A DNA stretch of 37,700 nucleotides from Gemmatimonadota bacterium (GTDB lineage: Bacteria > Gemmatimonadota > Gemmatimonadetes > Longimicrobiales > Gaopeijiaceae). Shown here piece after piece: positions 6,508 to 28,490 of the stretch (the first letter of the stretch is position 1; each line of letters opens with the position of its first letter). A program made the translations under genes and the position numbers. The notes beneath the pieces are model-generated. The model searched no databases and was not told the DNA's origin. It was given only the letters and a program-made list of their open reading frames with translations. The DNA is taken from the NCBI GenBank assembly GCA_003248075.1, contig QJYK01000111.1, positions 1 through 37,700 of the forward strand, in the 5' to 3' direction.

Positions 6508-7299
6508 ACTCGAGAAGGTGAAGCCGCAGCGGTCCGGAGGCGTCTCCGGTCCGAGCACGGAAGCGGAGGCACTCCGGGTCACGATACGGATCACGCCGTT
6601 CGCGCCCTGGTTCCCATAGGCCCAGCCCCCTGCGGCGCCCTTGGACACCTCGATGCGCTCCACGTCCTCGATGTTGATGGCCGAGAGCGCCTCGAGAGAA
6701 CGCTGCGGGAGAGGCACGCCGTCGACGACCACGAGGGGCTGGACCGGGCCCTGCACGGTGGCCGATCGCCTGCCCACGAGCCGTTGGCTCGCCCCTGGCT
6801 CGTTGGATCCCTGGCCGACCATCTCCGGGGCCACCAATCGGATCGCGTCCTGCAGGGTCTGGGAGTGGCGTCGCCGGATGTCCTCCCGGGTCACGACATG
6901 GGTGGCGTCGCCGCTCCTGCGGGCCCCGAGGGTCCACCCGGCGAGGCGGTCCTCCACGTCCTCGGGAAGCTGCACGGTCAGGCGCACGCTCAGCTCCGTC
7001 CCGGCCACCACCTCGACCTGCCCGAGTCCCGTATGACAGCCGGCGGCGACCGCGGCGATGCGGTACGGCCCCGCACGCACCCCGGTGATCACGAACGCGC
7101 CGTCGGCGTCAGCGAACACCCGGACCCCTGCGTCGAGCGCCACGAGCGCGCCCGGCAACGCGATCCCGTCGCGCGCCGTAACGACCGTGCCCCGGAGGGT
7201 TCCGGTGCCTTCCTGGCCCCCGAGCGCGGTCGGGGCCGGTGGGAGTAGAACGGTCGAGAACGCCAGCGCGCCCAGGAGTCCTATTCGACGAGTGTTCAT
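6505..7299 (-). CDS. Plug-only TonB-receptor-like protein 1 (no barrel)
   Basis: The 264-residue protein has a signal peptide (about 1-33), a carboxypeptidase-regulatory-like beta domain (about 36-112, beginning GTLRGTVVTARDG) and a TonB-receptor plug domain (about 125-250). Plug hallmarks are VVTREDIRRR, PLVVVDGVPLPQ, INIEDVERIEVSKG and ANGVIRIVTR. There is no beta-barrel: the frame ends right after the plug, at DRCGFTFSS. Two Cys occur in the mature protein, one in the first domain (AAGCHTG) and one near the C-terminus, which could form a disulfide. The start is ATG 7299, with GGGAAG in front. Two proteins of the same build occur at 22125-22859 and 27681-28490. It probably acts in the periplasm or at the outer membrane near the SusCD system; its role is unknown. 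A truncated receptor is an alternative. Confidence 0.8.
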   Translation of the reverse strand: MNTRRIGLLGALAFSTVLLPPAPTALGGQEGTGTLRGTVVTARDGIALPGALVALDAGVRVFADADGAFVITGVRAGPYRIAAVAAGCHTGLGQVEVVAGTELSVRLTVQLPEDVEDRLAGWTLGARRSGDATHVVTREDIRRRHSQTLQDAIRLVAPEMVGQGSNEPGASQRLVGRRSATVQGPVQPLVVVDGVPLPQRSLEALSAINIEDVERIEVSKGAAGGWAYGNQGANGVIRIVTRSASASVLGPETPPDRCGFTFSS

Positions 7300-8086: not shown

Positions 8087-11017
8087 ATGAACCACCCATC
8101 GTTCGTCCCCACCAGGGGGCGAGGGGCTCGGTCGTGCACGTTCTTGTGCGCTGCCGCGGCTCTCGCCCTCTCGGTGTCGAGCCCGGTAGATGCCAGGGCT
8201 CAGAACGGGACCATCACCGGTTCCGTGACGGACGCGTCCAGCATGCGTCCGGTCGGGTCGGTGCAGGTCTACCTGCTCGACTCGTCGCTGGGAACCCTCA
8301 CGAACCAGGCGGGCCGATACCTGATCCTCAACGTTCCGGCGGGCACGTATCAGGTTCGTGCCGAACGGATCGGCTTCGCCACCGTGACCCAGCAGGTCAC
8401 GGTCACCGCGGGACAGACCGCGACGGTCGACTTCCAGCTCGAGACCGCCGCGCTCGGCCTCGACGAGATCGTCGTCACCGGGACGGCCGGCGCCGCGCGG
8501 CGCCGTGAGGTCGGCAACTCGATCTCGCAGGTGAACGTCGCGGACATCCCCGAGACGCCGCCGAGCGTCGACAACATGCTTTCCGGTCGAGTGCCGGGCA
8601 TGATGGTCATGCAGGGCAGCGCCTCGGCCGGCTCCGGCTCGCAGATCCGGCTCCGTGGCAACGTGTCCGTGGCCATGAGCAACCAGCCGATCATCTACAT
8701 CGACGGCGTGCGTGTCCGTTCGGACGGTCTGGCGATGAACGTGCCTCCGGCTGGCTCCAGCCTGCGGAGCAACAACGACATCGTGAGCCCGCTGAACGAC
8801 ATCAACCCCGCGGACATCGAGCGGGTCGAGGTGATCAAGGGCGCCGCGGCGACGACGCTGTACGGCACCGAGGCGGCCGCAGGCGTGATCCAGATCTTCA
8901 CCAAACGCGGACACACCGGCACGGCGCAGTGGACGGCGCAGGTCGACCAGGGCTTCAGCTACGTGCTGCCCTTCGGCGTGGACCCGGCCAGGCGACCCCC
9001 GAGCGAGCCGGCCGCCACCGAGCCGGGCGGCACCTCGGACTACCTCTACATCAACCCCTGGCTGCGGACCGCACACAAACAGCGGTACTCGCTGTCGGTG
9101 TCCGGAGGCGGGACGAGCCTGCAGTACTTCGTCTCCGGGTCGTATCAGGACGACGAGGGCGTGCTCCCCAACGACTACGAGCAGAAGGCTGTCGTGCGGG
9201 GGAACTTCACGTTCTCGCCGATCGAGAACCTCCAGATCCAGTGGAACACCTCGTACACGAACGACAACCTGGATCTGACCCCGGTTGGGAACAACGCGCA
9301 GGGCATCACCCTGAACGCGTACCGTCGCGACAGGAACTACCTGCGTGCGGAGACCCGCGAGGCCATCGATCCGCTGCTCTCGTTCCAGATCAACACCCAG
9401 CTCGACCACCTCATCTCCGGCATCGCGGCGACGTGGAGCCCCACACAGAGCTTCACGAACCGGCTGAGCGTCGGCTACGACCAGATCCAGCAGGACAACC
9501 GCAACTTCCGGCCGTTCGGCTTCGTGCTGCAGCCGGAGGGCGTCCTCTCGGACCGACGCTACGAATACTCGACACTGACCGTCGACTACGTCGGCTCGTA
9601 CGACTTCCAGCTCCCCAACGACGTCCGCTCGAGCCTTTCCTGGGGTGGTCAGAGCGTGACCACGGACCGACAGGAGACGTCGGCGTACGGCCAGGACTTC
9701 CCGGGCCCGGGCGAGCCGGTGGTGTCTAGCGGCGGCACGACGCTGGGCTTCGAGGACCGGACGAAGGTCGTCAACGCCGGCTTCTTCGTGCAGAACCTCT
9801 TCGACATCAAGAACCGCTACTTCATCACCGGCGGCGTGCGCGTCGACGGCAACAGCGCCTTCGGCGAGAACTTCGGCCTCGAGGTGTATCCCAAGGTCAG
9901 CGTGTCCCACATCATCTCGGACGAGGAGTTCTGGCCCGAGGGGTGGGGGCAGATGAAGCTTCGCGCTGCCTGGGGTCAGTCGGGCCGCGCGCCCGGCGCC
10001 TTCGACAAGGTGCGCACCTACGATCCGGTCGGCTGGGGCGGCGTGCCCGCGTTCCGGCCCCTGAACGTCGGCAACGCCGACATCGGCCCGGAGCGCACCG
10101 CGGAGATCGAGTTCGGCTTCGACGCGTCGATTATCAGCAACCGCGTGACCGCCGAGTTCACCTGGTACAAGCAGACCACCTCGGACGCGCTGTTCGACGT
10201 GCGGCAGATCCCGTCCAACGGCTTCCTCAGCTCGCAGCTGGCCAACATCGGCAAGCTCGAGAACAAGGGGATCGAGCTGAACGTGAACGCCGACGTCCTC
10301 CAGGGCGAGTCGTTCAACTGGCGCCTGGGCGGCAGCGTGTCCACGAACAAGAGCAAGGTGCTGGATCTGGGCGGTGCCCCGGCGTTCTCGCTGGGTGACT
10401 TCGGGTGGGTCGTCGAGGGCCAGCCCGTCCCTGGGATCCGGGCCAACTGCGTGGAGAACCCGGACCAGGCCGGGGTGCCGATCATCAAGCAGGACTGTGA
10501 CATCGGCCCGAACCTCCCGACCCTGATCCTGGGCGTGAACACGGCGCTGGACCTGCCCGGTGGGATCTTGCTGTCGGCCCGCGGCGAGTATCAGGGCGGG
10601 GGCTACATGTACGACGGTGCCGCCTGGAACGCGGTGCGCCGGTCCGTCCGCTGGCCGGGGTGCTTCGACTACTACAAGATCGAGGAGACCCAGGGCGCCG
10701 ACGCAGCCCCGGCGCTGCAGCGTGCGCGCTGCGACCTGGACTACTCGCAGGATGATTTCTTCGTTTATCCTGCGAAGTTCTTCAAGGTGCGTGAGGTGGC
10801 CTTGCAGGCCCCATTGCCGGAGTCGTGGGTTCCGGGGGCGAGTCGGGCCACGTTCACGATTTCCGGTCACAACGTGTGGAAGTGGGTGACCGACGAGTTT
10901 CCGGTGTTCGAGCCCGAGATGGGCACCAATGGCGGGTACAACGAGCCGGTGCGCGCGATGCTCGAGCACGTGCCGCCGCCGGCGACGTACACCTTCTCCC
11001 TCCGGGTCGTCTTCTAG
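8087..11017 (+). CDS. SusC/RagA-type TonB-dependent outer-membrane receptor 1
   Basis: This 976-residue protein has a signal peptide ending near DARAQ, a carboxypeptidase-regulatory-like domain (about residues 40-120), a possible TonB-box-like DEIVVTG (about 125-131), a plug domain with SQIRLRGN, PIIYIDGVRV, ADIERVEVIKGAAATTLYG and AAGVIQIFTKRG, then a long 22-strand type beta-barrel. It ends in phenylalanine (SLRVVF), as outer-membrane barrels do. SusC proteins import glycans or peptides in a pair with a SusD lipoprotein lid, energised by TonB. SusD1 starts 11 bases downstream. The start is ATG 8087, with GGAG ten bases upstream; in-frame ATGs at 8024 and 8051 are less likely because they lengthen the signal. 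The cargo cannot be told from sequence. Confidence 0.95.
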   Translation: MNHPSFVPTRGRGARSCTFLCAAAALALSVSSPVDARAQNGTITGSVTDASSMRPVGSVQVYLLDSSLGTLTNQAGRYLILNVPAGTYQVRAERIGFATVTQQVTVTAGQTATVDFQLETAALGLDEIVVTGTAGAARRREVGNSISQVNVADIPETPPSVDNMLSGRVPGMMVMQGSASAGSGSQIRLRGNVSVAMSNQPIIYIDGVRVRSDGLAMNVPPAGSSLRSNNDIVSPLNDINPADIERVEVIKGAAATTLYGTEAAAGVIQIFTKRGHTGTAQWTAQVDQGFSYVLPFGVDPARRPPSEPAATEPGGTSDYLYINPWLRTAHKQRYSLSVSGGGTSLQYFVSGSYQDDEGVLPNDYEQKAVVRGNFTFSPIENLQIQWNTSYTNDNLDLTPVGNNAQGITLNAYRRDRNYLRAETREAIDPLLSFQINTQLDHLISGIAATWSPTQSFTNRLSVGYDQIQQDNRNFRPFGFVLQPEGVLSDRRYEYSTLTVDYVGSYDFQLPNDVRSSLSWGGQSVTTDRQETSAYGQDFPGPGEPVVSSGGTTLGFEDRTKVVNAGFFVQNLFDIKNRYFITGGVRVDGNSAFGENFGLEVYPKVSVSHIISDEEFWPEGWGQMKLRAAWGQSGRAPGAFDKVRTYDPVGWGGVPAFRPLNVGNADIGPERTAEIEFGFDASIISNRVTAEFTWYKQTTSDALFDVRQIPSNGFLSSQLANIGKLENKGIELNVNADVLQGESFNWRLGGSVSTNKSKVLDLGGAPAFSLGDFGWVVEGQPVPGIRANCVENPDQAGVPIIKQDCDIGPNLPTLILGVNTALDLPGGILLSARGEYQGGGYMYDGAAWNAVRRSVRWPGCFDYYKIEETQGADAAPALQRARCDLDYSQDDFFVYPAKFFKVREVALQAPLPESWVPGASRATFTISGHNVWKWVTDEFPVFEPEMGTNGGYNEPVRAMLEHVPPPATYTFSLRVVF

Positions 11018-11027
11018 GAGCACTGAC

Positions 11028-12293
11028 ATGAGAATCGAGAACAGCAAGACGTTCGCGATGCGGTCGCTCCTGGTGGCCGGCGCGGTGGCGCTGGGAGCGT
11101 GTGACACCAGCGTGACCAACCCCGGGCCGGTCCAGGACGAGTTCCTGAACGACCCGGAGTCCCACGAGGCGATCGTCAACGGAATGGGACGCGCCGTGGC
11201 CGAGGCGCTCAACTGGATCGGCTACACGAGCGCGGCCGTGACCCGGGAGATCCACCCGTCTGGGTCCACGGGGTCCTTCGGGATCACGATCTTATGGCAG
11301 CGCGGTGAGCTGCAGCCCGACGACGACGACCTGGACACGCACTGGGAGCAGGCTCAGCGTGCGCGGTGGTTGGCGGAGAACGGAACGGCCCGGATGGAGG
11401 AGGTCGGCCCCGCGAGCCAGACGCTGCTCGCGCAAGCGTACCTGTGGAGCGGGTATGCGAACCGCATCCTGGGCGAGAACATGTGTGAGGCGGTCATCGA
11501 CGGCGGAGCACCACAGCCGAGGTCGGAGTTCCTCAACCGTGCGGAGGCGGCCTTCGGCCAGGCCATGAGCTTGGGGACCGGCAACCTCGCCACGGCGGCG
11601 GCCGCCGGCCGCGCGTCCGTACGTGTCCACCTGGGCAAGTGGTCGGAGGCGGTCTCCGATGCCTCGAGCGTGCCGGACGGCTTCGAGTACAAGATCCCGT
11701 ACTTCAACACCGGCGAGGAGGGTCTCCTCAATCGGATCCAATGGGCGTCCAACGGGGTCCCCTACCGTGCGCACACCCAGTGGAGCACCAAGTACGAGGC
11801 TTACTACACGGCCACCGGTGACCCACGGGTGCCCTGGAAGGACAACGGCGGCGAGCAGGGCGACGCCGCGATCGACTGCTGCGGCAAGGTGCCGTGGAAC
11901 CAGCAGCTCAAGTACCCGAGCCCGGCGGACGACGTGCGCCTGAGCTCGGGCGCCGAGATGCGTCTGATCGAGGCGGAAAAGCTGCTGATGGACGGGGACA
12001 TGGGGGGCGCGATGGCCAAGATCAACGCCCTCCGCTCGGCAGCTGGTGTGGCGGACGCCACCGCCTCGACCACGGACGAGGCGTGGGCCATGCTCAAGCG
12101 TGAGCGTGGCATCGTGCTCTGGCTCGAGGGGCGGCGCCTGGGAGACTTCAGGCGCTGGTCCGAGAACGGGACCCCCGGGGCGCTGGATCCGCTCGAGGTG
12201 CCCGGGGCGGCTTCCCACCTGACGCAGCAGGATCTGTGCTTCCCGATCCCGCCGTCGGAGCAGCAGACGAACCCGAACGTGCCGATCGCCTAG
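11028..12293 (+). CDS. SusD/RagB-type surface lipoprotein 1
   Basis: The 421-residue protein has a lipoprotein signal with lipobox LGAC followed by the D-T-S-V-T-N-P start typical of SusD homologues. The helical TPR-like body has the family's C-terminal landmarks: RLIEAEKLLMDGD, then an INALRSAAGV helix, WAMLKRERGIVLWLEGRRLGDFRRW, and FPIPPSEQQTNPNV near the end. It forms the substrate-binding lid on its partner SusC1. Translation starts at ATG 11028; the ribosome site GGAG (11017-11020) overlaps the SusC1 stop codon, so the two genes are tightly linked. At 421 residues it is short for the family (usually 450-600), which fits the small SusD group of Gemmatimonadota-like genomes. A CC pair occurs at AIDCCGK. 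Confidence 0.93.
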   Translation: MRIENSKTFAMRSLLVAGAVALGACDTSVTNPGPVQDEFLNDPESHEAIVNGMGRAVAEALNWIGYTSAAVTREIHPSGSTGSFGITILWQRGELQPDDDDLDTHWEQAQRARWLAENGTARMEEVGPASQTLLAQAYLWSGYANRILGENMCEAVIDGGAPQPRSEFLNRAEAAFGQAMSLGTGNLATAAAAGRASVRVHLGKWSEAVSDASSVPDGFEYKIPYFNTGEEGLLNRIQWASNGVPYRAHTQWSTKYEAYYTATGDPRVPWKDNGGEQGDAAIDCCGKVPWNQQLKYPSPADDVRLSSGAEMRLIEAEKLLMDGDMGGAMAKINALRSAAGVADATASTTDEAWAMLKRERGIVLWLEGRRLGDFRRWSENGTPGALDPLEVPGAASHLTQQDLCFPIPPSEQQTNPNVPIA

Positions 12294-17722: not shown

Positions 17723-18877
17723 CTACAGGCCCTCCTGGACTTGCCGGTCCCGAACCTTCCACACGAACGAGTCAACGTAGTAGTGCGTCATCCCGTACGT
17801 GTACACGACCAGCTGGGAGAAGAGGGCGGCCGCGGCGACGTAGTCGAGCGCAGGGAGGTTGAACTCGGGGATTGCCGGATACGGTGCGAAGTTGACGACG
17901 CCGAAACCGAACTCGTCGAGCGGTCGGTTGATCAGGAGCTGGAAGAGCATGGCATAGGCTACACCTCCCAGGAGAAACCAGCGCAGCCGTCCTTCACCGA
18001 CCATGCGGCTCCACAAGCCCGGGGTGGCGTGACCCTGCGCCTGGCTTCGACGCATGAAGAAATACACCATGACGATGTACTGGACGCCGTGCATGATGCG
18101 ATGAGCCACGGCGTAGAGCAGAATCGAGTTCGTGTTCCAGGCGACGAAATACCACAGGAAGTAGCTGGCACCGATGAACGCGTACTTGACCGGATTGATC
18201 GGCCGGCCGGCACGGACCGTGCGGGTCACGTGCCAGGCGTACACGCACAGGTAGCCGATCAGAACGACCCAGCTCGCGGTCAGGAGGCCTTCGACGAAGC
18301 CGGCGGAGAGGGGCACGCCCATCCTGTGCAGCTCGCGGATCCACAGGAACCGGAACATCGGGGCGTGCAGGAACATGTGGAGGTAGAGCACCCAATTCAG
18401 CGTCAGATCGAAGCGCCCCGTGGAGTCCAGTCCGCTGCCGGCCTTGAAGTCGTAGATCCGAGCGAATCCGTGCTGCTGCATGATGCTGTGCTGGTGGTCC
18501 CACGCCGACACGAGCAGCAGCAACGTGATCGGAGCCCATGTGAGCCCGGCCATCGTGAAGACGATGATCACGATGGGACCCAGCACCAGGCGCTCCTTGA
18601 AGCGCCTCCACACGTCCGGCATCCCGTACGTTCGAACCCACGTAGCGTAGTGATGCGGGATGGTGATCCAGAGGTTGATCGACGCCACCGCCACGTAGGG
18701 GAGCCACGCTTGGCACCCGAGCGCCACCAGCACCGCCAGGAAGGGAAGGGTCAGGAACCAGACGAGGTCTGCGGGGCCACTCAGGATGTAGCCCGACCGG
18801 AACACGCCACCACCGGCCCCCGCGAGGGCAGCGGTCGCGGGCGCTCCGGTGCTCCGGCCTGTGAGTGGTTCGGACAC
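17723..18877 (-). CDS. Histidine-rich polytopic membrane protein, unknown function
   Basis: Translation starts at GTG 18877, nine bases after GGAGGAAG, giving 384 residues with about eight hydrophobic helices. Histidine clusters sit at helix ends: IPHHYATW, WDHQHSIMQQHGF, LYLHMFLHAP, VAHRIMHGVQY and THYYVDSFVW. Such spacing recalls membrane metalloenzymes of the diiron desaturase/hydroxylase type (HxH, HxxxH), but the exact three-box pattern of those families is not met, so no name is given. A metal or heme site in the inner membrane is the inference. The gene lies downstream of the di-heme peroxidase-like gene, 157 bases away on the same strand, and is coupled to the following gene at 17720. 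Confidence 0.7.
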   Translation of the reverse strand: MSEPLTGRSTGAPATAALAGAGGGVFRSGYILSGPADLVWFLTLPFLAVLVALGCQAWLPYVAVASINLWITIPHHYATWVRTYGMPDVWRRFKERLVLGPIVIIVFTMAGLTWAPITLLLLVSAWDHQHSIMQQHGFARIYDFKAGSGLDSTGRFDLTLNWVLYLHMFLHAPMFRFLWIRELHRMGVPLSAGFVEGLLTASWVVLIGYLCVYAWHVTRTVRAGRPINPVKYAFIGASYFLWYFVAWNTNSILLYAVAHRIMHGVQYIVMVYFFMRRSQAQGHATPGLWSRMVGEGRLRWFLLGGVAYAMLFQLLINRPLDEFGFGVVNFAPYPAIPEFNLPALDYVAAAALFSQLVVYTYGMTHYYVDSFVWKVRDRQVQEGL

Positions 18878-19034: not shown

Positions 19035-20459
19035 TCAGCACTGGCCTCCCAGGCGAGCATCGGGCTCGAAGCGATGGACCGGCAGCCCGCTGGGTACGCG
19101 CAGCGGCACCAGCTGTTGTAGCGCCTGAGGCGCGGCCCGCGGATCCGTGAGCCCGTCCCGTACGAAAGCGAGGAGGTCCCCGAACTCTTCGTCCGAGAGC
19201 TGCGGCGGGTTCCTGATGAACTCGTGCAGACGCGCCAGCACCGGCTCCATCGGTCCCAGCGAGCCCCGGAGCGTGGGCTCCAGACGGTCGGTGGTGAACG
19301 CTCGAACGCTACCGGCCGCGTCCAGGTGATGCCGGATCGCGTCACTCAGGCATACGAACGCCCCGTTGTGCATGTAAGCCGGCTGATAGGCCGCGTTACG
19401 CAGGGGTTGGGTCCGGAACTTGTATCGGTCCGACTCACGACCGGTCTGCTGCTCGAGGCCGTAGTCCTCGTCGGCCCCGGGTCCGTCGAAGGGTTGGATG
19501 CCATCCGTGGGCACGACCTGCGGGACCCCGAGAACGTGGGGCTCGAAGTCGCTGAACATCTCGTTCGCGAAGCGACCGACGATGTGGCATTCCCCACATT
19601 TGGCACGTCCGAAGAAGAGCTGCGCTCCGCGCTTCTGCGCCGTGGTCATGGCGCCGTGATCACCGCGCGCGAACCGGTCGATGGGGGCGTCGGCGCGCAC
19701 GAGGGTGAACTCGAACTCCGCGATGGCTGCGGCGATGTGCTCGAGCCGAACGGGCGCGCCGTCCGATACCTCGCCGAACACTCCCGCGAAGAGGCTCCGG
19801 TACTCGTCGATGGCGTCGACCCGTCGCGCCACCTCGGCCCGCATGTCCACATGGCTGCCATTGAAGCTCCCCGCCATCTCGTGTCGGTTGATCACGGGCG
19901 TGAACGCCTGTGCCGCGAGCAGGTGGGGAAGTTGAGACAGGGCCGCCCCGTCGGGCGGGGGGAACGTGAAGCCTCGATCGTTTCGGAAAGGATCGAGACC
20001 GTTGGCGATGAAGCGCGAATCCCACATGAGTCGCGGGAAGAAGGCCGCGTTCAGGATGCTCGGGGCCCGCCGCTGATTGTGGGGACCGCGACGGCCGGGG
20101 CCGACCACACCGTTGTTGCCCACCCCGATCGCGATGGACCGGGAATCGTTGAAGCTGACGTTGGGCCCGTGGCAACCCGAGCAGCTGTTGTCACGGGTCA
20201 GCGACAGGACGGGATCGAAGAACAGGAGTCTGCCGATCTCGGCCAGGCGGGGGTCGACCGGCCTTCCGAGCCGCTCCTCCAAGGTCGCCTCGACCCGACC
20301 GGTGAAGCCACGCTCGGTCAGGTGGGCGCTCAGATCGGCGTCGAGGGCCGCCTCCACGGACGGATCCGGAGGGGGTGGCCCGCACGAGGAGAGCGCGACG
20401 GGCAAACTCGCCGCCGCGGCGACAAGGGCTCGGGGCAGGACGCTGATGACGGGTCTCAC
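19035..20459 (-). CDS. Di-heme cytochrome c peroxidase-like lipoprotein
   Basis: The protein of about 474 residues starts at GTG 20459 and has a lipoprotein signal with lipobox LSSC (Cys26). Two c-type heme motifs are present: CSGCH (93-97) and CGECH (288-292), at the spacing expected for the MauG/bacterial cytochrome c peroxidase family. Other landmarks are GRLLFFDPVLS, RAPSILNAAF, MWDSR and QPLRNAAYQPAYMHNGAF. Family members reduce H2O2 or modify proteins with electrons from small cytochromes in the periplasm. It ends in a C-terminal cysteine (GGQC). The start codon is uncertain because no ribosome site is seen. The RnfD-like gene diverges from it, with 94 bases between starts. The protein is likely tethered to the outer or inner membrane on the periplasmic side. 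Confidence 0.9.
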   Translation of the reverse strand: MRPVISVLPRALVAAAASLPVALSSCGPPPPDPSVEAALDADLSAHLTERGFTGRVEATLEERLGRPVDPRLAEIGRLLFFDPVLSLTRDNSCSGCHGPNVSFNDSRSIAIGVGNNGVVGPGRRGPHNQRRAPSILNAAFFPRLMWDSRFIANGLDPFRNDRGFTFPPPDGAALSQLPHLLAAQAFTPVINRHEMAGSFNGSHVDMRAEVARRVDAIDEYRSLFAGVFGEVSDGAPVRLEHIAAAIAEFEFTLVRADAPIDRFARGDHGAMTTAQKRGAQLFFGRAKCGECHIVGRFANEMFSDFEPHVLGVPQVVPTDGIQPFDGPGADEDYGLEQQTGRESDRYKFRTQPLRNAAYQPAYMHNGAFVCLSDAIRHHLDAAGSVRAFTTDRLEPTLRGSLGPMEPVLARLHEFIRNPPQLSDEEFGDLLAFVRDGLTDPRAAPQALQQLVPLRVPSGLPVHRFEPDARLGGQC

Positions 20460-20553: not shown

Positions 20554-22128
20554 ATGGCCGACGTGAGCGCCCGCCCCCTCACGCCCGTGCGCGCGATCGC
20601 CATCCCGTGTGCGCTCGGCGCGGTCCTGTGCGCCTACCTGGCGCCTCCCCCGATGCGTGCGACGGCCGGCCTCGCGGCCGGGTTCCTGGGCGCCGGCGGT
20701 CTCCTGGTAGTCTGGGCCATCGTTCTCGCGGCGGCGGCCACCCGAAGCGGGCGTTCCCTGACCTTCGCGGTGGTGGCACACAAGCACCACTGGGTGCAGG
20801 CGTGCGCCCAGCTCGTGCTCCTGACCTACTGGGGCTGGTACGTCCGACCGGTATACGCCTATCTGCCCTTCGTCGTCGCACAGCTGGTTTTCGCGTACGG
20901 CGTCGACGCGCTCCTCAACTGGTCCCGCCGGGGGAGCTGGCAGCTCGGCTTCGGGCCCGTCCCGATCGTCCTGAGCATCAACTTCTTCCTCTGGTTCAAG
21001 CCCGAGTGGTTCTACTGGCAGTTCGTCATCGTCCTGCTCGGATACCTGGGCAAGGAGTTCATCCGCTGGACCCGAGACGGCCGCCGACGGCACATCTTCA
21101 ACCCGTCGTCGTTCCCGCTCGGTGTGTTCTCGCTCGTTCTCATCGTGACCGGCACGACCGGCGTCACGTTCGGACTGGAGATCGCACAGACGCTCTTCAA
21201 CCCGCCCCACATCTACCTGGTGATCTTCCTGGTGGCGCTGCCGGCCCAGGCACTCTTCGGCGTGACGACGATGACGATCTCGTCGGTCCTCACCGCGTAC
21301 GCCTGGAGCCTCGCCTACTACGCCGTCACCGGTACGTACTACTTCCGGGACGCATACATCCCCATCGCGGTCTTTCTGGGGATGCACCTCCTGTTCACGG
21401 ATCCCTCCACATCCCCGCGGACGGGGCCGGGTCGGGTCGCCTTCGGCATCCTGTATGCGATGGCGACCATAGCGCTCGCGGCGGTGCTCGAGTCCGCTGG
21501 CGCGCCGACCTTCTACGACAAGCTCCTCCCGATACCCCTGCTCAACCTGACGGTCCGACGGATCGACCGCGTGGCGGACGCGCTCACGCCGAGTTTGCCC
21601 GGCGGCGCGTGGGCGTCCTCGGGGTACGGGACCGCCCGCCGCCGGCTGGCCATCGTCGGGCTCTGGGTGGCCACCTTCGCGGGCATGACTGCCCTGGGCG
21701 CGGTCGGGGACGACCACCCTGGTCAATACCTGCCCTTCTGGGAGGCGTCCTGCGAGACGGGCAGTGACCGCGCCTGCGCGTACCTGGCGGTCATGGAGGG
21801 CAACTATTGCGAGCGCGGGTCCGGATGGGCCTGCAACGAGCTGGCCATCCAGCAGGCGGTGCGCTGGAGGGACGCCCGGGCCGCGCTATCGACAATGAGG
21901 CGGGGGTGCGACCTGTCGTTTCGGACAGCGTGCGACAACCTGGGGCGTATGGGCAGAGGAGAGCAGGGCCTGGCGCGGGCCCAGCCCGAGCTCAGGGACC
22001 TGCCCATCGTCCTGCGTGGAAGCAAGGGCCCGGTGCGAGCGACCAGCGCGGCCGAGCTCCATGAGCTCGGCTGCCGGAGGGGGTGGTCGGTGCTGTGCCG
22101 TGCCGGCACGGAGGTGGCTGCCGAATGA
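20554..22128 (+). CDS. RnfD/NqrB-like membrane protein with Hcp/Sel1-like cysteine tail
   Basis: The 524-residue protein starts at ATG 20554 behind GGAGGA. Residues 1-385 form about ten membrane helices with RnfD/NqrB/UnbU-like features: HIFNPSSFPLGVFSLVL, WFKPEWFYWQFVIVLLGYLGKE, and IPIAVFLGMHLLFTDPSTSP. RnfD and NqrB carry flavin in ion-pumping electron transport; no partner Rnf or Nqr genes are here, so the reaction is unknown. After the last helix a soluble tail (about 395-524) holds four C-x7-C motifs: Cys400/408, 419/427, 452/460 and 507/515. This spacing is that of disulfide-bonded Sel1-like repeats of the Helicobacter Hcp type. The tail is inferred to be periplasmic. The stop codon overlaps the start of plug-only protein 2 (ATGA, 22125-22128). 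Confidence 0.8.
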   Translation: MADVSARPLTPVRAIAIPCALGAVLCAYLAPPPMRATAGLAAGFLGAGGLLVVWAIVLAAAATRSGRSLTFAVVAHKHHWVQACAQLVLLTYWGWYVRPVYAYLPFVVAQLVFAYGVDALLNWSRRGSWQLGFGPVPIVLSINFFLWFKPEWFYWQFVIVLLGYLGKEFIRWTRDGRRRHIFNPSSFPLGVFSLVLIVTGTTGVTFGLEIAQTLFNPPHIYLVIFLVALPAQALFGVTTMTISSVLTAYAWSLAYYAVTGTYYFRDAYIPIAVFLGMHLLFTDPSTSPRTGPGRVAFGILYAMATIALAAVLESAGAPTFYDKLLPIPLLNLTVRRIDRVADALTPSLPGGAWASSGYGTARRRLAIVGLWVATFAGMTALGAVGDDHPGQYLPFWEASCETGSDRACAYLAVMEGNYCERGSGWACNELAIQQAVRWRDARAALSTMRRGCDLSFRTACDNLGRMGRGEQGLARAQPELRDLPIVLRGSKGPVRATSAAELHELGCRRGWSVLCRAGTEVAAE

Positions 22129-22859
22129 AACGGATGGCGTTCTGCGGGTCGTCTCTGGTGGTATGGGCGCTCGCCGTGCCGAGCCTGCGCGCCCAGGAGC
22201 CCGAGCGGGCCGCGCTCGAGGGCCAGGTGGTGGACAGCCTGACCGAGCGGCCCCTGGAGGGCGTCCTCCTCCGGCTCGACTCCGGGGTGGAGACGCGCTC
22301 CGACCGCTCCGGTCGCTTCACGCTCGGCGGTCTCGAGCCGGGGCCCCACGTGCTCGCCGCGCTCACCGAGGACTGTCGGGTGGCCTGGGTGGGCGTCCAC
22401 CTCGTGGCCGGCGGCACCGCGGAGGTGACGGTCTCCATGCCGGCGCCTCCGGGCGGCGCTCGGCCGCAGAGGGCGGCAGTTCCCGAGCGGGCTCGCTCCG
22501 GCGGACGGCTGGTGACCGCCGCCGAGATCGACGCGATGCGCGCGAGGTCGCTGCGCGACGTCATCGGTCGGATCGCACCCAGCATGATGTCACGCGGCAG
22601 GAACTCCCTGCTGTCATCAGACGTGGAGTTCGTCGTCGTGGTGGACGGTGTCCGGGCGGCCGATGGGGACCGCACCCTGGACAACATCCGGCCGGAGGAC
22701 GTCGAGACCATGGAGCTGGCGCCGGGCTCTTCGGCGGGGTGGGAGTTCGGCTCCGCAGGATCGGCGGGCCTCATCAGGATCGTGACCCGTGGGAGTCCGA
22801 GCCGTACCCCGGAGCCCAGTGGGGCGTCGTGCGTCGTCCCGGGCATGCGGGGGCCGTAG
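22125..22859 (+). CDS. Plug-only TonB-receptor-like protein 2 (no barrel)
   Basis: The start codon overlaps the previous stop (ATGA), and GGAGGT lies nine bases upstream, so translation is coupled to the RnfD-like gene. The 244-residue protein has a signal peptide ending near LRAQE, a carboxypeptidase-regulatory-like domain (about 28-105, LEGQVVDSLTERPLEGV), and a plug domain (about 125-225) with LRDVIGRIAPSMM, EFVVVVDGVRA, IRPEDVETMELAPG and SAGLIRIVTRG. It ends without a barrel at a short Pro/Ser tail with one Cys (SGASCVVPG). The mature protein has two Cys, one in the first domain (TEDCRVAW) and one at the end, as in plug-only protein 1. The SusC2 promoter follows after 60 bases. Role unknown, likely periplasmic. 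Confidence 0.8.
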   Translation: MKRMAFCGSSLVVWALAVPSLRAQEPERAALEGQVVDSLTERPLEGVLLRLDSGVETRSDRSGRFTLGGLEPGPHVLAALTEDCRVAWVGVHLVAGGTAEVTVSMPAPPGGARPQRAAVPERARSGGRLVTAAEIDAMRARSLRDVIGRIAPSMMSRGRNSLLSSDVEFVVVVDGVRAADGDRTLDNIRPEDVETMELAPGSSAGWEFGSAGSAGLIRIVTRGSPSRTPEPSGASCVVPGMRGP

Positions 22860-23106: not shown

Positions 23107-26085
23107 ATGAGTCATCCGAAGTTCGTGGACGCCTCGCGTCGAAGGTTCCGATGCGGGCTCGCCGGCCTCATGGCGCTCGCCCTCGCGGTCGTCGTCGCTA
23201 CCGACGTTACGGCCCAGGGCACAGGGACGGTCACCGGGATCGTCCGAGACGCCGTGAACCGGAATCCCCTGCCGGGCGCCCAGGTGTCGGTCGAGGGCGC
23301 CGGCCTGGGCGGCCTGGCCAACAACGTCGGGCGCTTTCTCATCCTGAGCGTTCCGGCCGGCCAGCACACCATCCAGGCCCAGCTCATCGGTTACCGGAGC
23401 GTCTCCCTCTCGGTTACGGTGACCGCCGACGAGACTATCACGGTGGACTTCGACCTACGCCAGGAGGCGCTGTCGTTGGAGGGCGTGGTCGTGACCGGCA
23501 CCGCCGGTCAGGCGCGGCGCCGTGAGATCGGGAACCAGATCAGCCAGGTCACCTCTCAGGACATCGAGCTGGCCGCGGTGACCGACATCGGCGACATCCT
23601 CCAGGGACGCACGACCGGAGTGCAGATCAACGACTTCGGTGGCCAGGTCGGCCAGGCGAGCCAGATCCGGCTTCGTGGCAACAGCTCTCTGACCCAGGGG
23701 AACAACCCGCTGATCTACGTCGACGGCATCCGGATCAAGAACAACGAGCTGGAGGAGGACGACGACGAGGCAGGTGCAAGCTCGTCCGTGTTCGACATGA
23801 TCAACCCCAACGACATCGAGCGGATCGAGGTCGTCAAGGGTCCGGCGGCGACCACGCTGTACGGTACGGAGGCCGCCGGGGGCGTGATCCAGATCTTCAC
23901 GAAGCGCGGAACCGCGGGCGCGCCGGCGTGGACGTTCAGCGCCGACGCCGGTCTGCACAGCATGCCCTACATCGGAAACAGCCTGAACCCGAAGTCGATC
24001 AATCCGACCGGGTTCCAGATGAACGACTGCACGCGCTCCCAGCGCTTCAACGCCCAGACCATGCAGTTCGAGATCATCAACGAGCGCGAGCCCGGCTGCC
24101 CGGACAACGGGAGCTGGTTCCGCAAGGGCTATTTCCAGCGCTACAACGTGAGCGTGCGTGGTGGCGGAGAGAACGTGAACTACTTCGTCTCCGGACGCTG
24201 GGAGAACGAGGATGGCGTCGTCGATCCGCAGGGACAGGAGTCGTACGGCGTGCGCGGCAATGTGGCATTCACCCCGCTCCAGGGACTGAACATCTCCCTG
24301 AACAACAACTACCAGCACCGGAAGGTGACGTGGATCCCCGACGGGAACAACGCCTCCGGTCTCACGCTCAACGTGCTGCGCGGCACCGCCGGGTACACCC
24401 CGGGGAACGACGACTCCCTGGTGCTGCAGAACGACCTGTTCAGCGACGTAGACCTCTTCCAGACTGCGGCGACCGTCGCTTGGGCGCCCAACACGATGTG
24501 GGACCACCGCCTGACGGTGGGGATGGACTACTCGCTGGCGGACTTCATCGACTGGAAGCCCTGGGGCTTCTACGAAGACCCGACGGCCAACCGCGAGAAC
24601 GACGAGCTGAAGGAGCGGAACCTGACGTTCGACTACTCCGGCTCCATCAACTACAGCCCCATCTCCGACATCAGCTCGCGCTTCTCGTTCGGGGGCCAGC
24701 TCTACGAGGAGTTCACGTACCGGCTGAACGCGTTCGACGAACAGTTCGCCGGGCCCGGTGAGGCGCTCATCGGCGACGGCACGAATCGGGACGTCGGGGA
24801 GGACCGGCTGCGGGTACGCAGCGGGGGCTTCTTCCTCCAGGAGGCGGTGGGCTTCAAGGACAAGCTGTTCCTGACCGCGGGCGTGCGCTGGGACGGCTTC
24901 AGCACGTTCGGCGAGGGCTTCGGTCTCGCGACCTACCCGAAGTTCTCGGCGTCGTACATGCTCTCGGACGAGTCGTTCTTCCCGACAGGGATCGTGGAGC
25001 AGCTGAAGCTCCGCGCTGCGTGGGGCCAGTCCGGCAAGGCGCCGGGGGCCTTCGAGGCAGAGAAGCTCTGGGAGGCCGCGGACGCGGACGAGCAGGTGCC
25101 CGCGGTGATCATCGACAATCTCGGCAACCCGGACCTCGGACCCGAGAAGAGCACGGAGATCGAGTGGGGCTTCGACCTGTCGGCGCTGGACGGCCGCGTG
25201 ACCCTCGAGTTCACGAAGTACGACCAGACCACGAAGGACGCGCTCATCGGTGTGTCCGGGACGCCCTCCTCCGGGACCGACAACACGGTTCTCCGGAACC
25301 TCGGTGAAGTGAAGAACTGGGGCACGGAGTCGGCGCTCAACCTGGTGCCGTGGCGCAGCGAGAACGTCGAGTGGTCGGTGGGCGTGCAGTGGAGCACCAA
25401 CGACAGCGAGATCACCGACCTGGGGCCCCTCGAGCAGCTCGACGGCGGTCGCCAGGTGGGACGGCCGCTCTACATCCAGTACGACGATGTCCTCACCAAC
25501 CCCGGTGAGTACGGGGTGGCGCCGATCCTGGCGGACACGATGATCGGACGGCTCTTCCCCACCGACATCGTCAACCTCCGTACCCGTGTCACGCTCTGGC
25601 AGTCGCTGACGCTGGACGTGGTGGGGGAGGGGCAGTACGGGATGGTGCGGCCCGTGGGGCCGGCGTACCAGAACATGCGCAGGACCTCGCTCACCAACCC
25701 GGTGTGGCCCTACTGCGCGCCGATCCTGGCGCAGTGGCAGGCGACGCCCGGGCCGAACAGCAACCGGATCGCGAACTCGGGGCTGAGCACGGACCAGATC
25801 TCCCAGTGCATCCAGCAGTACTCGGACCAGGGCGTGTGGACCACTGCCGCCGACTTCTTCAAGCTCCGCTCCGCCACGATCTCGTGGCGTCTGCCGGAGA
25901 GCTGGGTCCCCCGCGCCCGGAGCGTGCAGCTCTCGCTCCAGGGCAAGAACCTGTTCAAGATCACCGACTACTACGGGCTCGACCCCGAGGGACAGGACAA
26001 CGGCTTCGAGGACTCGACGCCCAACGACTACTACACCTTCGGGCAGCCGAGGACGTTCATCTTCGGCGTGACCGTGAACTTCTAG
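23107..26085 (+). CDS. SusC/RagA-type TonB-dependent outer-membrane receptor 2
   Basis: ATG 23107 follows AAAGGAGG (23095-23102). The 992-residue protein has a signal peptide ending near VTAQG, a carboxypeptidase-regulatory-like domain (about 37-120), a plug with SQIRLRGNSSLTQG, PLIYVDGIRI, NDIERIEVVKGPAATTLYG and GGVIQIFTKRG, and a large barrel ending in phenylalanine (FGVTVNF). The hinge VVTGTAGQARRREIGNQISQV at about residues 126-146 closely matches that of SusC1, so the two receptors share an ancestor, yet the barrel sequences differ in loop lengths. An acidic insertion (ELEEDDDEAG) sits in the plug. It should import its cargo with the SusD2 lid, using TonB energy. Cargo is unknown. Confidence 0.95.
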   Translation: MSHPKFVDASRRRFRCGLAGLMALALAVVVATDVTAQGTGTVTGIVRDAVNRNPLPGAQVSVEGAGLGGLANNVGRFLILSVPAGQHTIQAQLIGYRSVSLSVTVTADETITVDFDLRQEALSLEGVVVTGTAGQARRREIGNQISQVTSQDIELAAVTDIGDILQGRTTGVQINDFGGQVGQASQIRLRGNSSLTQGNNPLIYVDGIRIKNNELEEDDDEAGASSSVFDMINPNDIERIEVVKGPAATTLYGTEAAGGVIQIFTKRGTAGAPAWTFSADAGLHSMPYIGNSLNPKSINPTGFQMNDCTRSQRFNAQTMQFEIINEREPGCPDNGSWFRKGYFQRYNVSVRGGGENVNYFVSGRWENEDGVVDPQGQESYGVRGNVAFTPLQGLNISLNNNYQHRKVTWIPDGNNASGLTLNVLRGTAGYTPGNDDSLVLQNDLFSDVDLFQTAATVAWAPNTMWDHRLTVGMDYSLADFIDWKPWGFYEDPTANRENDELKERNLTFDYSGSINYSPISDISSRFSFGGQLYEEFTYRLNAFDEQFAGPGEALIGDGTNRDVGEDRLRVRSGGFFLQEAVGFKDKLFLTAGVRWDGFSTFGEGFGLATYPKFSASYMLSDESFFPTGIVEQLKLRAAWGQSGKAPGAFEAEKLWEAADADEQVPAVIIDNLGNPDLGPEKSTEIEWGFDLSALDGRVTLEFTKYDQTTKDALIGVSGTPSSGTDNTVLRNLGEVKNWGTESALNLVPWRSENVEWSVGVQWSTNDSEITDLGPLEQLDGGRQVGRPLYIQYDDVLTNPGEYGVAPILADTMIGRLFPTDIVNLRTRVTLWQSLTLDVVGEGQYGMVRPVGPAYQNMRRTSLTNPVWPYCAPILAQWQATPGPNSNRIANSGLSTDQISQCIQQYSDQGVWTTAADFFKLRSATISWRLPESWVPRARSVQLSLQGKNLFKITDYYGLDPEGQDNGFEDSTPNDYYTFGQPRTFIFGVTVNF

Positions 26086-26100
26086 CCCGGAGGCCAGACC

Positions 26101-27495
26101 ATGAGGAAGCACAGAGAGAAGCGAATGGCGTTGGGCCCCGTCCTGCTGGGCGCGGCGGTCGCAGCGATGCTCTCCGGGTGCGACCTGGGGATCCAGAACC
26201 CGGGCCGAATCTCGGACGACGCGCTGAACGATCCCAGCCTGATGGGCGTGGTCGTGAACGGCATCGCGAACGAGTTCAACATCACCACCGACAACTTCTC
26301 GTTCGACGTGGCTCGTCTCACCGACGAGATGGCGGGCACCGGGAGCTACTTCCAGACCGGCCGCTACCGCCGCGGGGCCCAGGACTGGGAGGAGACCAAC
26401 GCCCAGTGGGGCTACTACCACGAGACCATCTGGACCGCCGAGCAGGCGATCGAGCGCATGGAGAGCCTCGAGGACTTCGACCAGAACACGAGCCCGCTGA
26501 CCGCGAGGGCGTACCTGCTCAAGGGTCTGGCGGAGAGGAGCTACGGGGAGGCCTTCTGCGAGGTCATCTACGACGAGGGCGCCGTGGAGCCGCGCACGGC
26601 CGCGTTCGACCGGGCGATCACGGCGCTGACCACGGCCGTCACGATCGGGAGCGCGGCGGGGCCCGACGGCGCCGAGTATGTAACGGCCGCGCGGGCGGGT
26701 CTCGCGCAGGCGTACATGGGCAAGGGCGACTTCGGCCAGGCCACGAACTACTCGAGTCAGGTACCCACCGACTTCGAGGTGTCGGCCCACTACCACCAGA
26801 ACGCGAACCAGAACCTCTTCTTCAACGAGACCTGGGACCGGGCGGAGATCGGGCTGTACAACACGTACGGTGGCACCCTGGCCACGGAGGACCCCAGGGC
26901 ACCGTACACGATCTGCGGCACGTTCGACGACCCGGCCAACCCCAAGAACTCCAACGTCACGCCCACCGGGCTGTGCACGGCACACCAGGGGGCGGACGGG
27001 GTCACGGCGCACTACCGCCAGGAGAAGTACCCCGAGTCCGGGTCGGACATCCCCGTGGTCAAGGGGACGGACATGCGCCTCATCGAGGCCGAGGCCGCGC
27101 TGCGAAACGGGAACCTGGCGGGATTCACGGCGAGCATCAACGAGGTGCGCGCCTTCTACGGTCTGGACCCCATCGCCCAGCCTGCGACGGCGGGGGCCCT
27201 CGAGTACCCGAACGCCTACGACGCCAGCACCGGCGACGTCACGGCCCCGGGCGTGGACGGTTGGTCGATCCTGGACGGAGAGCGGTACCTGACGCTCTTC
27301 ATGGAAGGCCGGCGGGAGTGGGATCTGCACCGGTGGGATCATCCGTTCCTGAACGGCGGCATCGTCTTCTGGGACGCGGAGGACCGGCGCTCGTCGTGCT
27401 GGGTGATTCCCGAGATCGAGTGCACGCTCAACCAGACCGTCAAAGGCTCGAGCTTTGCGAGCGGGGTCGGGAGCGGGACGGTAACCTGCGGCTGA
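26101..27495 (+). CDS. SusD/RagB-type surface lipoprotein 2
   Basis: The 464-residue protein starts 15 bases after the SusC2 stop, behind GGAGG (26089-26093). A lipoprotein signal with lipobox LSGC leads to C-D-L-G-I-Q-N-P-G, the usual N-terminus of the family. Helical TPR-like units and C-terminal landmarks follow: MRLIEAEAALRNGN, SINEVRAFYGL, and GERYLTLFMEGRREWDLHRW. It caps SusC2 and binds substrate at the cell surface. Several Cys lie in the C-terminal part (SSCWVIPEIEC and a final VTCG), absent at the same place in SusD1, and may form disulfides. Two hairpins follow the stop codon. Confidence 0.93.
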   Translation: MRKHREKRMALGPVLLGAAVAAMLSGCDLGIQNPGRISDDALNDPSLMGVVVNGIANEFNITTDNFSFDVARLTDEMAGTGSYFQTGRYRRGAQDWEETNAQWGYYHETIWTAEQAIERMESLEDFDQNTSPLTARAYLLKGLAERSYGEAFCEVIYDEGAVEPRTAAFDRAITALTTAVTIGSAAGPDGAEYVTAARAGLAQAYMGKGDFGQATNYSSQVPTDFEVSAHYHQNANQNLFFNETWDRAEIGLYNTYGGTLATEDPRAPYTICGTFDDPANPKNSNVTPTGLCTAHQGADGVTAHYRQEKYPESGSDIPVVKGTDMRLIEAEAALRNGNLAGFTASINEVRAFYGLDPIAQPATAGALEYPNAYDASTGDVTAPGVDGWSILDGERYLTLFMEGRREWDLHRWDHPFLNGGIVFWDAEDRRSSCWVIPEIECTLNQTVKGSSFASGVGSGTVTCG

Positions 27496-27680: not shown

Positions 27681-28490
27681 ATGTGTGCATCTGCCAGACT
27701 GCGGTGGGCTGTGGCCGGGAGCGTGGTGCTCCTCGGGTCGGGGTTGCCGCTCACCCGTGGCGAGGCGCGGGGACAGGAGCTCCGAGGCGCGATCGTGGAC
27801 GCCGCCTCGGCGCGTCCGGTCGTCCTCGCCTACGTCGGCCTGCTCGCGCCCGGCCGGGAGTTCGTCGTGGCGACACTCGCCGACGGCGAGGGCCGGTTCT
27901 CCATCCGGGCGCCCGAGGCCGGCTCGTACTTCCTGTACGTGGCGCGCACGGGGTACCGGCCGCTGCTGGACGGGCTCTTCGACCTGGGAGAGGACGGCGT
28001 CCTCGAGCTTTCGGTCGGCATGACGCCGGCGCCGATCCCGGTGGAGCCGGTGGTCGTGGAGGTGGAGGGGCGGGGCGTGGACCTGGCGTCGGTGGGCTTC
28101 TACGAGCGCCGGGCCTCGGGCCAGGGTCACTTCATCACGCGGGAGGAGATCGAGCGCTCAGCCGTGGGGGAGCTCGCCGACGCTATGAGGAACGTGGTGG
28201 GGCTCCGCGTCTACGAACCCGGCGTGAACCCGCTCTTCCCCACCGGAGTGCAGCACTCGGAGATCCTCGTGCGGCGGGACGGCGAGTGGTGCTCGCCCAC
28301 CCTGTTCGTGGACGGAGTCGCCGTCGCCCGGGGCGGGCGGGGCGGCAGCCGTCCCGTTCGGCCGGACGACTACGTCGACCCCTCTGAAGTGGACGGCGTC
28401 GAGATCTACACGCGACCGGCCGAAACCCCGCTGGAGTTCGAACGGACCGGCGGCTGCGGCGCCGTGTTGGTCTGGACCCGCAAGCGGTAA
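27681..28490 (+). CDS. Plug-only TonB-receptor-like protein 3 (no barrel)
   Basis: The 269-residue protein starts at ATG 27681, ten bases after GGGAGG. It has a signal peptide ending near EARGQ, a carboxypeptidase-regulatory-like domain (about 34-115, LRGAIVDAASARPVVLAYV) and a plug domain (about 150-262): HFITREEIERSAV, LADAMRNVVGLRV, PTLFVDGVAVARG, DPSEVDGVEIYTRP and a final CGAVLVWTRKR. There is no barrel. Two Cys lie in the mature part, in GEWCSP and TGGCGAV; both are within the plug, unlike in the other two copies. It follows the susC2-susD2 terminators, so it may be read by leakage or from a promoter not recognised in the 185-base gap. It is probably a secreted or periplasmic accessory of the uptake locus. 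Confidence 0.8.
   Translation: MCASARLRWAVAGSVVLLGSGLPLTRGEARGQELRGAIVDAASARPVVLAYVGLLAPGREFVVATLADGEGRFSIRAPEAGSYFLYVARTGYRPLLDGLFDLGEDGVLELSVGMTPAPIPVEPVVVEVEGRGVDLASVGFYERRASGQGHFITREEIERSAVGELADAMRNVVGLRVYEPGVNPLFPTGVQHSEILVRRDGEWCSPTLFVDGVAVARGGRGGSRPVRPDDYVDPSEVDGVEIYTRPAETPLEFERTGGCGAVLVWTRKR

Follow-up and report, generated by a model that had tools for sequence, protein, structure and literature searches.

The gene at 20554..22128 (+) of the window, by which we mean the whole stretch of 37,700 nt analysed here (Gemmatimonadota bacterium, GCA_003248075.1, contig QJYK01000111.1, positions 1-37,700, forward strand), encodes a 524-aa RnfD-like membrane protein with an Hcp-type Sel1 tail, as judged from its translation, its homologues and their alignment. 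This RnfD-Sel1 fusion is a conserved, uncharacterised family, no description of which was found in a literature search that had most subscription papers outside its reach. The most likely reading, in which we place middling confidence, is that these proteins combine a membrane anchor bearing a flavin/quinone-type pocket with a peptide-binding periplasmic adaptor, and that they hold or couple an envelope partner. All features of the gene given below lie on the plus strand.

Besides cysteines 19, 26 and 84, the translated protein has eight more, arranged as C400/C408 (21751..21777), C419/C427 (21808..21834), C452/C460 (21907..21933) and C507/C515 (22072..22098), which are the positions claimed for four C-x7-C pairs in the preliminary description of this DNA. 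The pairs are hardly fortuitous, as four disjoint ones arise in 5 per million trials (~5e-6) when eight cysteines are placed randomly in a 134-residue tail. Homology searches detected relatives in 35 of 98 related genomes, most matches spanning nearly the full length, and further members in Gemmatimonadota, Acidobacteriota and Myxococcota came from scanning species genomes, so that the suggestion of looking for the same fusion elsewhere turned up a family. Among 150 genomes of the phylum, full-length members occur mainly in the window's own family, and four genomes (G141, G142, G144, G194) have tandem copies, overlapping or abutting in three. The window's own genome harbours a second copy (L081; G000:C177:3839-5348), split over two frames by either gene decay or faulty assembly. 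Although the members of the 35-sequence alignment share only ~40-57% identity with the window protein, the first six tail cysteines are invariant and C507/C515 fall in the class conserved in at least 90% (~95% for this pair); pairs kept at such divergence indicate that tail and membrane part evolve as one protein, and the loss of pairs in close homologues that might have spoken against the earlier description did not occur. A tree of 46 members has two large parts, with the window protein in the one lacking a clade linked to FGE-like proteins (see below); neighbours were clustered over 48 loci, with genes called by a codon-usage script.

Scanned alone, the window protein gives no Pfam or NCBIfam match at E<=1, so that profiles and scans of the other members were required to place it. 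NQR2_RnfD_RnfE (PF03116) is matched by 32 of the 35 members, mostly weakly and below the curated cut-off, the rnfD model by 23, and Sel1 by 9/35. An AlphaFold model obtained with the window protein and ten relatives (mean pLDDT 81.5) aligns in VIA-align with RnfD at Z 19.3 (8rbq, 250 residues, rmsd 3.4) and with NqrB at Z ~18-18.5, while Amt/Rh proteins (Z 13) and urea transporters (Z <10) come lower in the list. Model residues 74-359 correspond to RnfD residues 17-344, and the RnfD/NqrB-fold core can be delimited as residues 74-350 (20773..21603); upstream of residue 74, where the RnfD matches begin, lies an extra N-terminal helical pair (residues 11-65, 20584..20748; model helices 11-27 and 38-65). 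The RnfD/NqrB-type membrane part proposed earlier is therefore borne out by fold, profile and member matches, as a remote relationship. For closer placement, two sets were compared with the family: canonical RnfD, defined by strong PF03116 matches and exemplified by a separate rnfD in the window's own genome (L085), and standalone RnfD-like proteins (L105, L107, L111, L117, L119, L121-L123), which are here called UnbU-type. Profile comparison aligns the family with the UnbU-type set over 226 columns (prob 93.8), whereas the canonical RnfD set aligns over just 77 (prob 47), and by this measure the nearest kin are the standalone UnbU-type proteins, not Rnf subunits. One of the UnbU-type proteins adjoins an FG-GAP/UnbV_ASPIC protein, and a second one is a fusion with FG-GAP repeats. 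L107, L111 and L122 (G087, G085) combine the standalone core with FG-GAP-type repeats in a single open frame (Pfam-shown for L111), another architecture in which an RnfD-like core is joined to an extracytoplasmic domain.

Structure comparison further shows that the core is a whole RnfD plus one more hydrophobic helix, the last of the membrane part (residues 360-380, 21631..21693). The ends of RnfD and NqrB lie in the cytoplasm. These proteins have ten helices (PMC12174285), which places both ends on one side, and the presence of an extra helix after the core, with mean K+R dropping in the 35 members from 6.4 in the stretch before it to 1.0 after it, makes it very probable that the tail (residues 386-524, 21709..22125) is periplasmic. 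Homology to RnfD and the charge distribution thus favour the topology assumed at the outset, and no sign of a cytoplasmic tail was encountered.

The preliminary description had also raised a covalent FMN site in the membrane part, and here the alignment gives a negative answer. Relative to canonical RnfD, UnbU-type proteins have a large gap over the covalent-FMN loop T-G/A-A-T-P, and the NP-to-TD distance, clearly longer in canonical RnfD, is 90-99 residues in the window family and the UnbU-type proteins (90-95 in the latter); since the FMN loop falls in the gap and the NP-TD distance is short, the site is absent. An ApbE match is present in 27/35 carrier vs 35/63 non-carrier genomes (98 genomes, p 0.05), and its lack in eight of the 35 carriers, including one- or two-contig genomes, argues against a covalent flavin as well. 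With the loop gone and ApbE missing from these genomes, covalent flavinylation of RnfD-Sel1 was rejected.

A different picture emerges for riboflavin, which in Vibrio cholerae NqrB is held by the side chains of Thr162, Asn200, Asn203 and Asp346 (PMC9325719, PMC10643135), with D346A crippling the pump (PMC10643135). Motif alignment by way of the UnbU-type proteins makes HIFNPSS (residues 180-186, 21091..21111) the counterpart of the NqrB motif N200-x-F-N203-P-A205, matching Asn200 with H180, Asn203 with N183 and Ala205 with S185, and makes TDPSTSP (residues 282-288, 21397..21417), aligned with TDYATSP of RnfD 7zc6, the counterpart of the motif with Asp346, which becomes D283; the T162 equivalent is uncertain. 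All four columns (H180, N183, S185, D283) are invariant in the 35 members. The replacement of N200 by an invariant His implies that the pocket differs, and the retention of the Asn203 and Asp346 equivalents that a non-covalent flavin, or a ligand resembling it, is most likely bound in the core; taken together, the sequences are consistent with a retained, altered riboflavin-type pocket near the cytoplasmic face. Neither an NAD-binding domain (PF00175) nor an NqrC/RnfG partner was found in the protein, in other members of its family or among the window neighbours; the latter also include no Rnf/Nqr subunit, no FMN-bind partner and no FG-GAP/UnbV partner, and the recurrent neighbours across the 48 loci are others.

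The tail was claimed to carry the disulfide pattern of Hcp-type Sel1-like repeats, and both profile and structure uphold this. The family profile matches HcpC at E 9.8e-13 and HcpB at E 1.4e-4 (Pfam Sel1 is not matched by the single window sequence), and for the tail modelled alone (pLDDT 86) the first Foldseek match is HcpB (prob 0.95, E 0.22) and the VIA-align list is led by Sel1 proteins at Z ~7, a value that is middling taken alone. The model contains only about three well-formed repeats; in one acidobacterial member (L036) the array is longer by further C-x7-C repeats. In Hcp proteins the disulfides are structural, each tying a repeat by its end to the beginning of its successor; groove asparagines, conserved in Sel1/TPR proteins, bind the peptide backbone (PMC3851747). 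In the RnfD-Sel1 family, N428 is kept in 35/35 members and N462 in 34/35, each located after the second cysteine of its own pair (C419/C427 and C452/C460, respectively). By analogy, the four C-x7-C pairs would lock a short Sel1-like solenoid through disulfides, and an adaptor role suits the tail better than that of an electron-passing arm.

Both neighbours named at the outset are present, namely, a divergent di-heme CCP/MauG-family protein (19035..20357, minus strand; PF03150 E 1e-34) and an orphan CarboxypepD_reg + Plug protein (22134..22859, +) that starts 6 bp downstream of the RnfD-Sel1 gene. Beyond the latter, on the plus strand, come a SusC-like TonB-dependent receptor (23170..26085), a SusD-like lipoprotein (26125..27495; PF07980 E 4e-10) and, by domain scan, a second orphan CarboxypepD_reg + Plug protein (27711..28490). 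One other genome, G021, repeats the set of CCP/MauG, RnfD-Sel1, plug protein, SusC and SusD, with the CCP/MauG gene adjoining the family gene and a plug homologue at the same place, and its RnfD-Sel1 protein is not the closest relative of the window's in the tree. The coupling to neighbours proposed earlier thus holds in part: the peroxidase adjacency is kept in G021 alone among the other sampled genomes, and CCP/MauG was set aside as a partner, whereas the receptor link is stronger than had been claimed. The window SusC finds its best match in six other genomes in the copy lying 0.3-7.5 kb from an RnfD-Sel1 gene, out of 4-11 homologues per genome (chance ~2e-5, for genomes chosen for a nearby SusD), with G026 as an exception and G043 broken by contig ends. 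SusD proximity is seen in 7/12 genomes vs 0.3 expected, counting multi-copy genomes once and with relatedness uncorrected. Within the window's clade, SusD-like genes occur near 9/23 loci, at several separate places in the tree and in varying gene order, and SusD therefore cannot be a required partner for all members. The window as a whole contains two SusC/SusD pairs (8243-12293 and 23170-27495) and three orphan plug proteins without a barrel, the third of these, at 6559-7233 (-), being a homologue of the one at 22134-22859 (+) by search. The MauG gene has beside it, on its own strand, a gene for a 360-aa protein with membrane-like stretches and no Pfam match (17723-18805, -).

A distinct partner marks the clade mentioned above (support 100/100), 18 of whose 19 members have an FGE-sulfatase-domain protein, encoded by the next gene at 17 loci and fused in L068. 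This FGE-like partner, at gene +1 in L062-L080, usually has a hydrophobic N-terminal segment and is separated from the RnfD-Sel1 gene by a gap of -40 to 183 bp. The fused protein (L068, 7868-10264, minus strand) joins the RnfD-like core, Sel1 tail and FGE-like domain in one 798-aa frame and has lost the last cysteine pair. FGE uses copper-cysteine chemistry. In the FGE-like partner an invariant C-P-E-C holds the only widely conserved cysteines, which makes such chemistry unlikely, and a role as a classic formylglycine enzyme, to which the presence of the domain could point, was likewise considered unlikely. Nine loci, drawn from both subfamilies (L042, L044, L045, L051, L062, L066, L076, L078, L079), have a gene for an NHL-repeat protein close to the family gene.

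The mechanism that we propose starts from a core in the inner membrane that, on the evidence of fold and profile, is a standalone UnbU-type descendant of RnfD/NqrB, that has lost the periplasmic covalent-FMN loop according to the alignment, and that most likely binds a non-covalent flavin, or a ligand resembling it, towards the cytoplasmic side and close to the quinone pool. The extra last helix would then very probably take the chain into the periplasm, where, as Hcp homology suggests, disulfides of the four pairs would lock the short solenoid, and its conserved groove asparagines could dock a peptide of an envelope partner. Judging by gene linkage, the docked partner of the one subfamily may be its FGE-like protein, and that of the window's own subfamily is most likely the receptor system of SusC, SusD and plug protein linked to it; linkage does not equal interaction, and the window itself has two SusC/SusD pairs. 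The RnfD-Sel1 protein would in this manner couple or hold its partner at the inner membrane, with no electron passage along the cysteines. A bolder version, in which these proteins are a new, RnfD/NqrB-derived class of quinone/flavin proteins linking the inner membrane through the disulfide-locked Sel1 tail to SusC/SusD receptors of the outer membrane or to an FGE-like protein, as an extra coupling or signalling device for TonB-dependent uptake, strikes us as improbable.

Other functions can be envisaged for the same architecture. RnfD and NqrB share the fold of ammonium and urea channels (PMC12174285), as the Amt/Rh score of the model also reflects, and because of this common fold the core might act as a solute channel or carrier that moves a small compound delivered via SusC/SusD, with the tail docking the receptor side. 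The loss of the covalent FMN loop and the linkage to SusC/SusD would suit such a role, to which we assign a small yet appreciable likelihood, considering that RnfD/NqrB rank clearly above channels in the structure list, that the invariant N183 and D283 occupy riboflavin positions, and that the FGE-linked subfamily mostly has no SusC/SusD neighbour within five genes. We regard as similarly unlikely a core without any ligand binding, a mere anchor for the Sel1 adaptor: UnbU-type proteins lack adjacent Rnf partners and N200 is changed to His, as might be expected of such a scaffold, but the many polar core positions invariant in the 35 members (H79, Q82, K167, H180, N183, D283, K323) would be needless for a plain anchor.

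The preliminary description envisaged a redox arm. Spelled out, electrons would leave membrane quinol or flavin and travel through the paired cysteines to a protein in the periplasm, for instance CCP/MauG. Kinship with RnfD/NqrB and the divergent MauG-type gene speak for it, as does the finding of close MauG orthologues in family carriers only (6/6, p 6e-4, with relatedness uncorrected), a gene that in four of those six genomes is located elsewhere. Weighed against this are the missing covalent FMN site, the lack of a nearby electron-donor or FMN-bind subunit, the eight of 35 carriers without ApbE, and the structural nature of the Hcp disulfides (PMC3851747). Electron transfer through the cysteines is thus unlikely, and of the readings considered the electron-passing arm is the least supported and, in our estimate, quite improbable. 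An anchor with a ligand pocket and a peptide-binding adaptor remains our preferred reading, and RnfD-Sel1 function is open to testing through its invariant residues and the partner genes linked to it.

Several known systems offer points of comparison. The Hcp proteins of Helicobacter (HcpB 1klx, HcpC 1ouv) have in common with the tail the C-x7-C pairs, the helical repeats and the conserved Asn after the second Cys (PMC3851747), but are soluble, cysteine-rich and composed of more repeats, whereas the family has a short array fused to a membrane core. RnfD/NqrB proteins (PF03116) share the core fold (Z 18-19), the FNP and TDPxTSP motifs and the Asn203/Asp346 equivalents, from which the family departs in its lack of the covalent-FMN loop and of Rnf/Nqr partners, its His for N200, its extra helices at both ends and its Sel1 tail. 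Nqr/Rnf-like flavinylation systems (PMC8238504, PMC10979944) likewise have an NqrB/RnfD-like subunit that does not conserve the flavinylated Thr; they differ in carrying an NqrC/RnfG-like partner and a fused NAD-binding domain, both of which were looked for and not found here. Closest are the UnbU-type proteins, alike in their short core without the FMN loop, in the K...H-x-x-N-P-S/T motif and in joining a membrane core to an extracytoplasmic domain; their partner domain is FG-GAP/UnbV_ASPIC, not Sel1, and the sequence link is at profile level only. An RnfD/NqrB core known from multi-subunit ion pumps thus also exists in single proteins with periplasmic adaptors attached; in this family it no longer has the covalent flavin but has retained the riboflavin position. 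Along with the UnbU/UnbV pairs, this points to a general plan of an RnfD-like core plus an extracytoplasmic domain.
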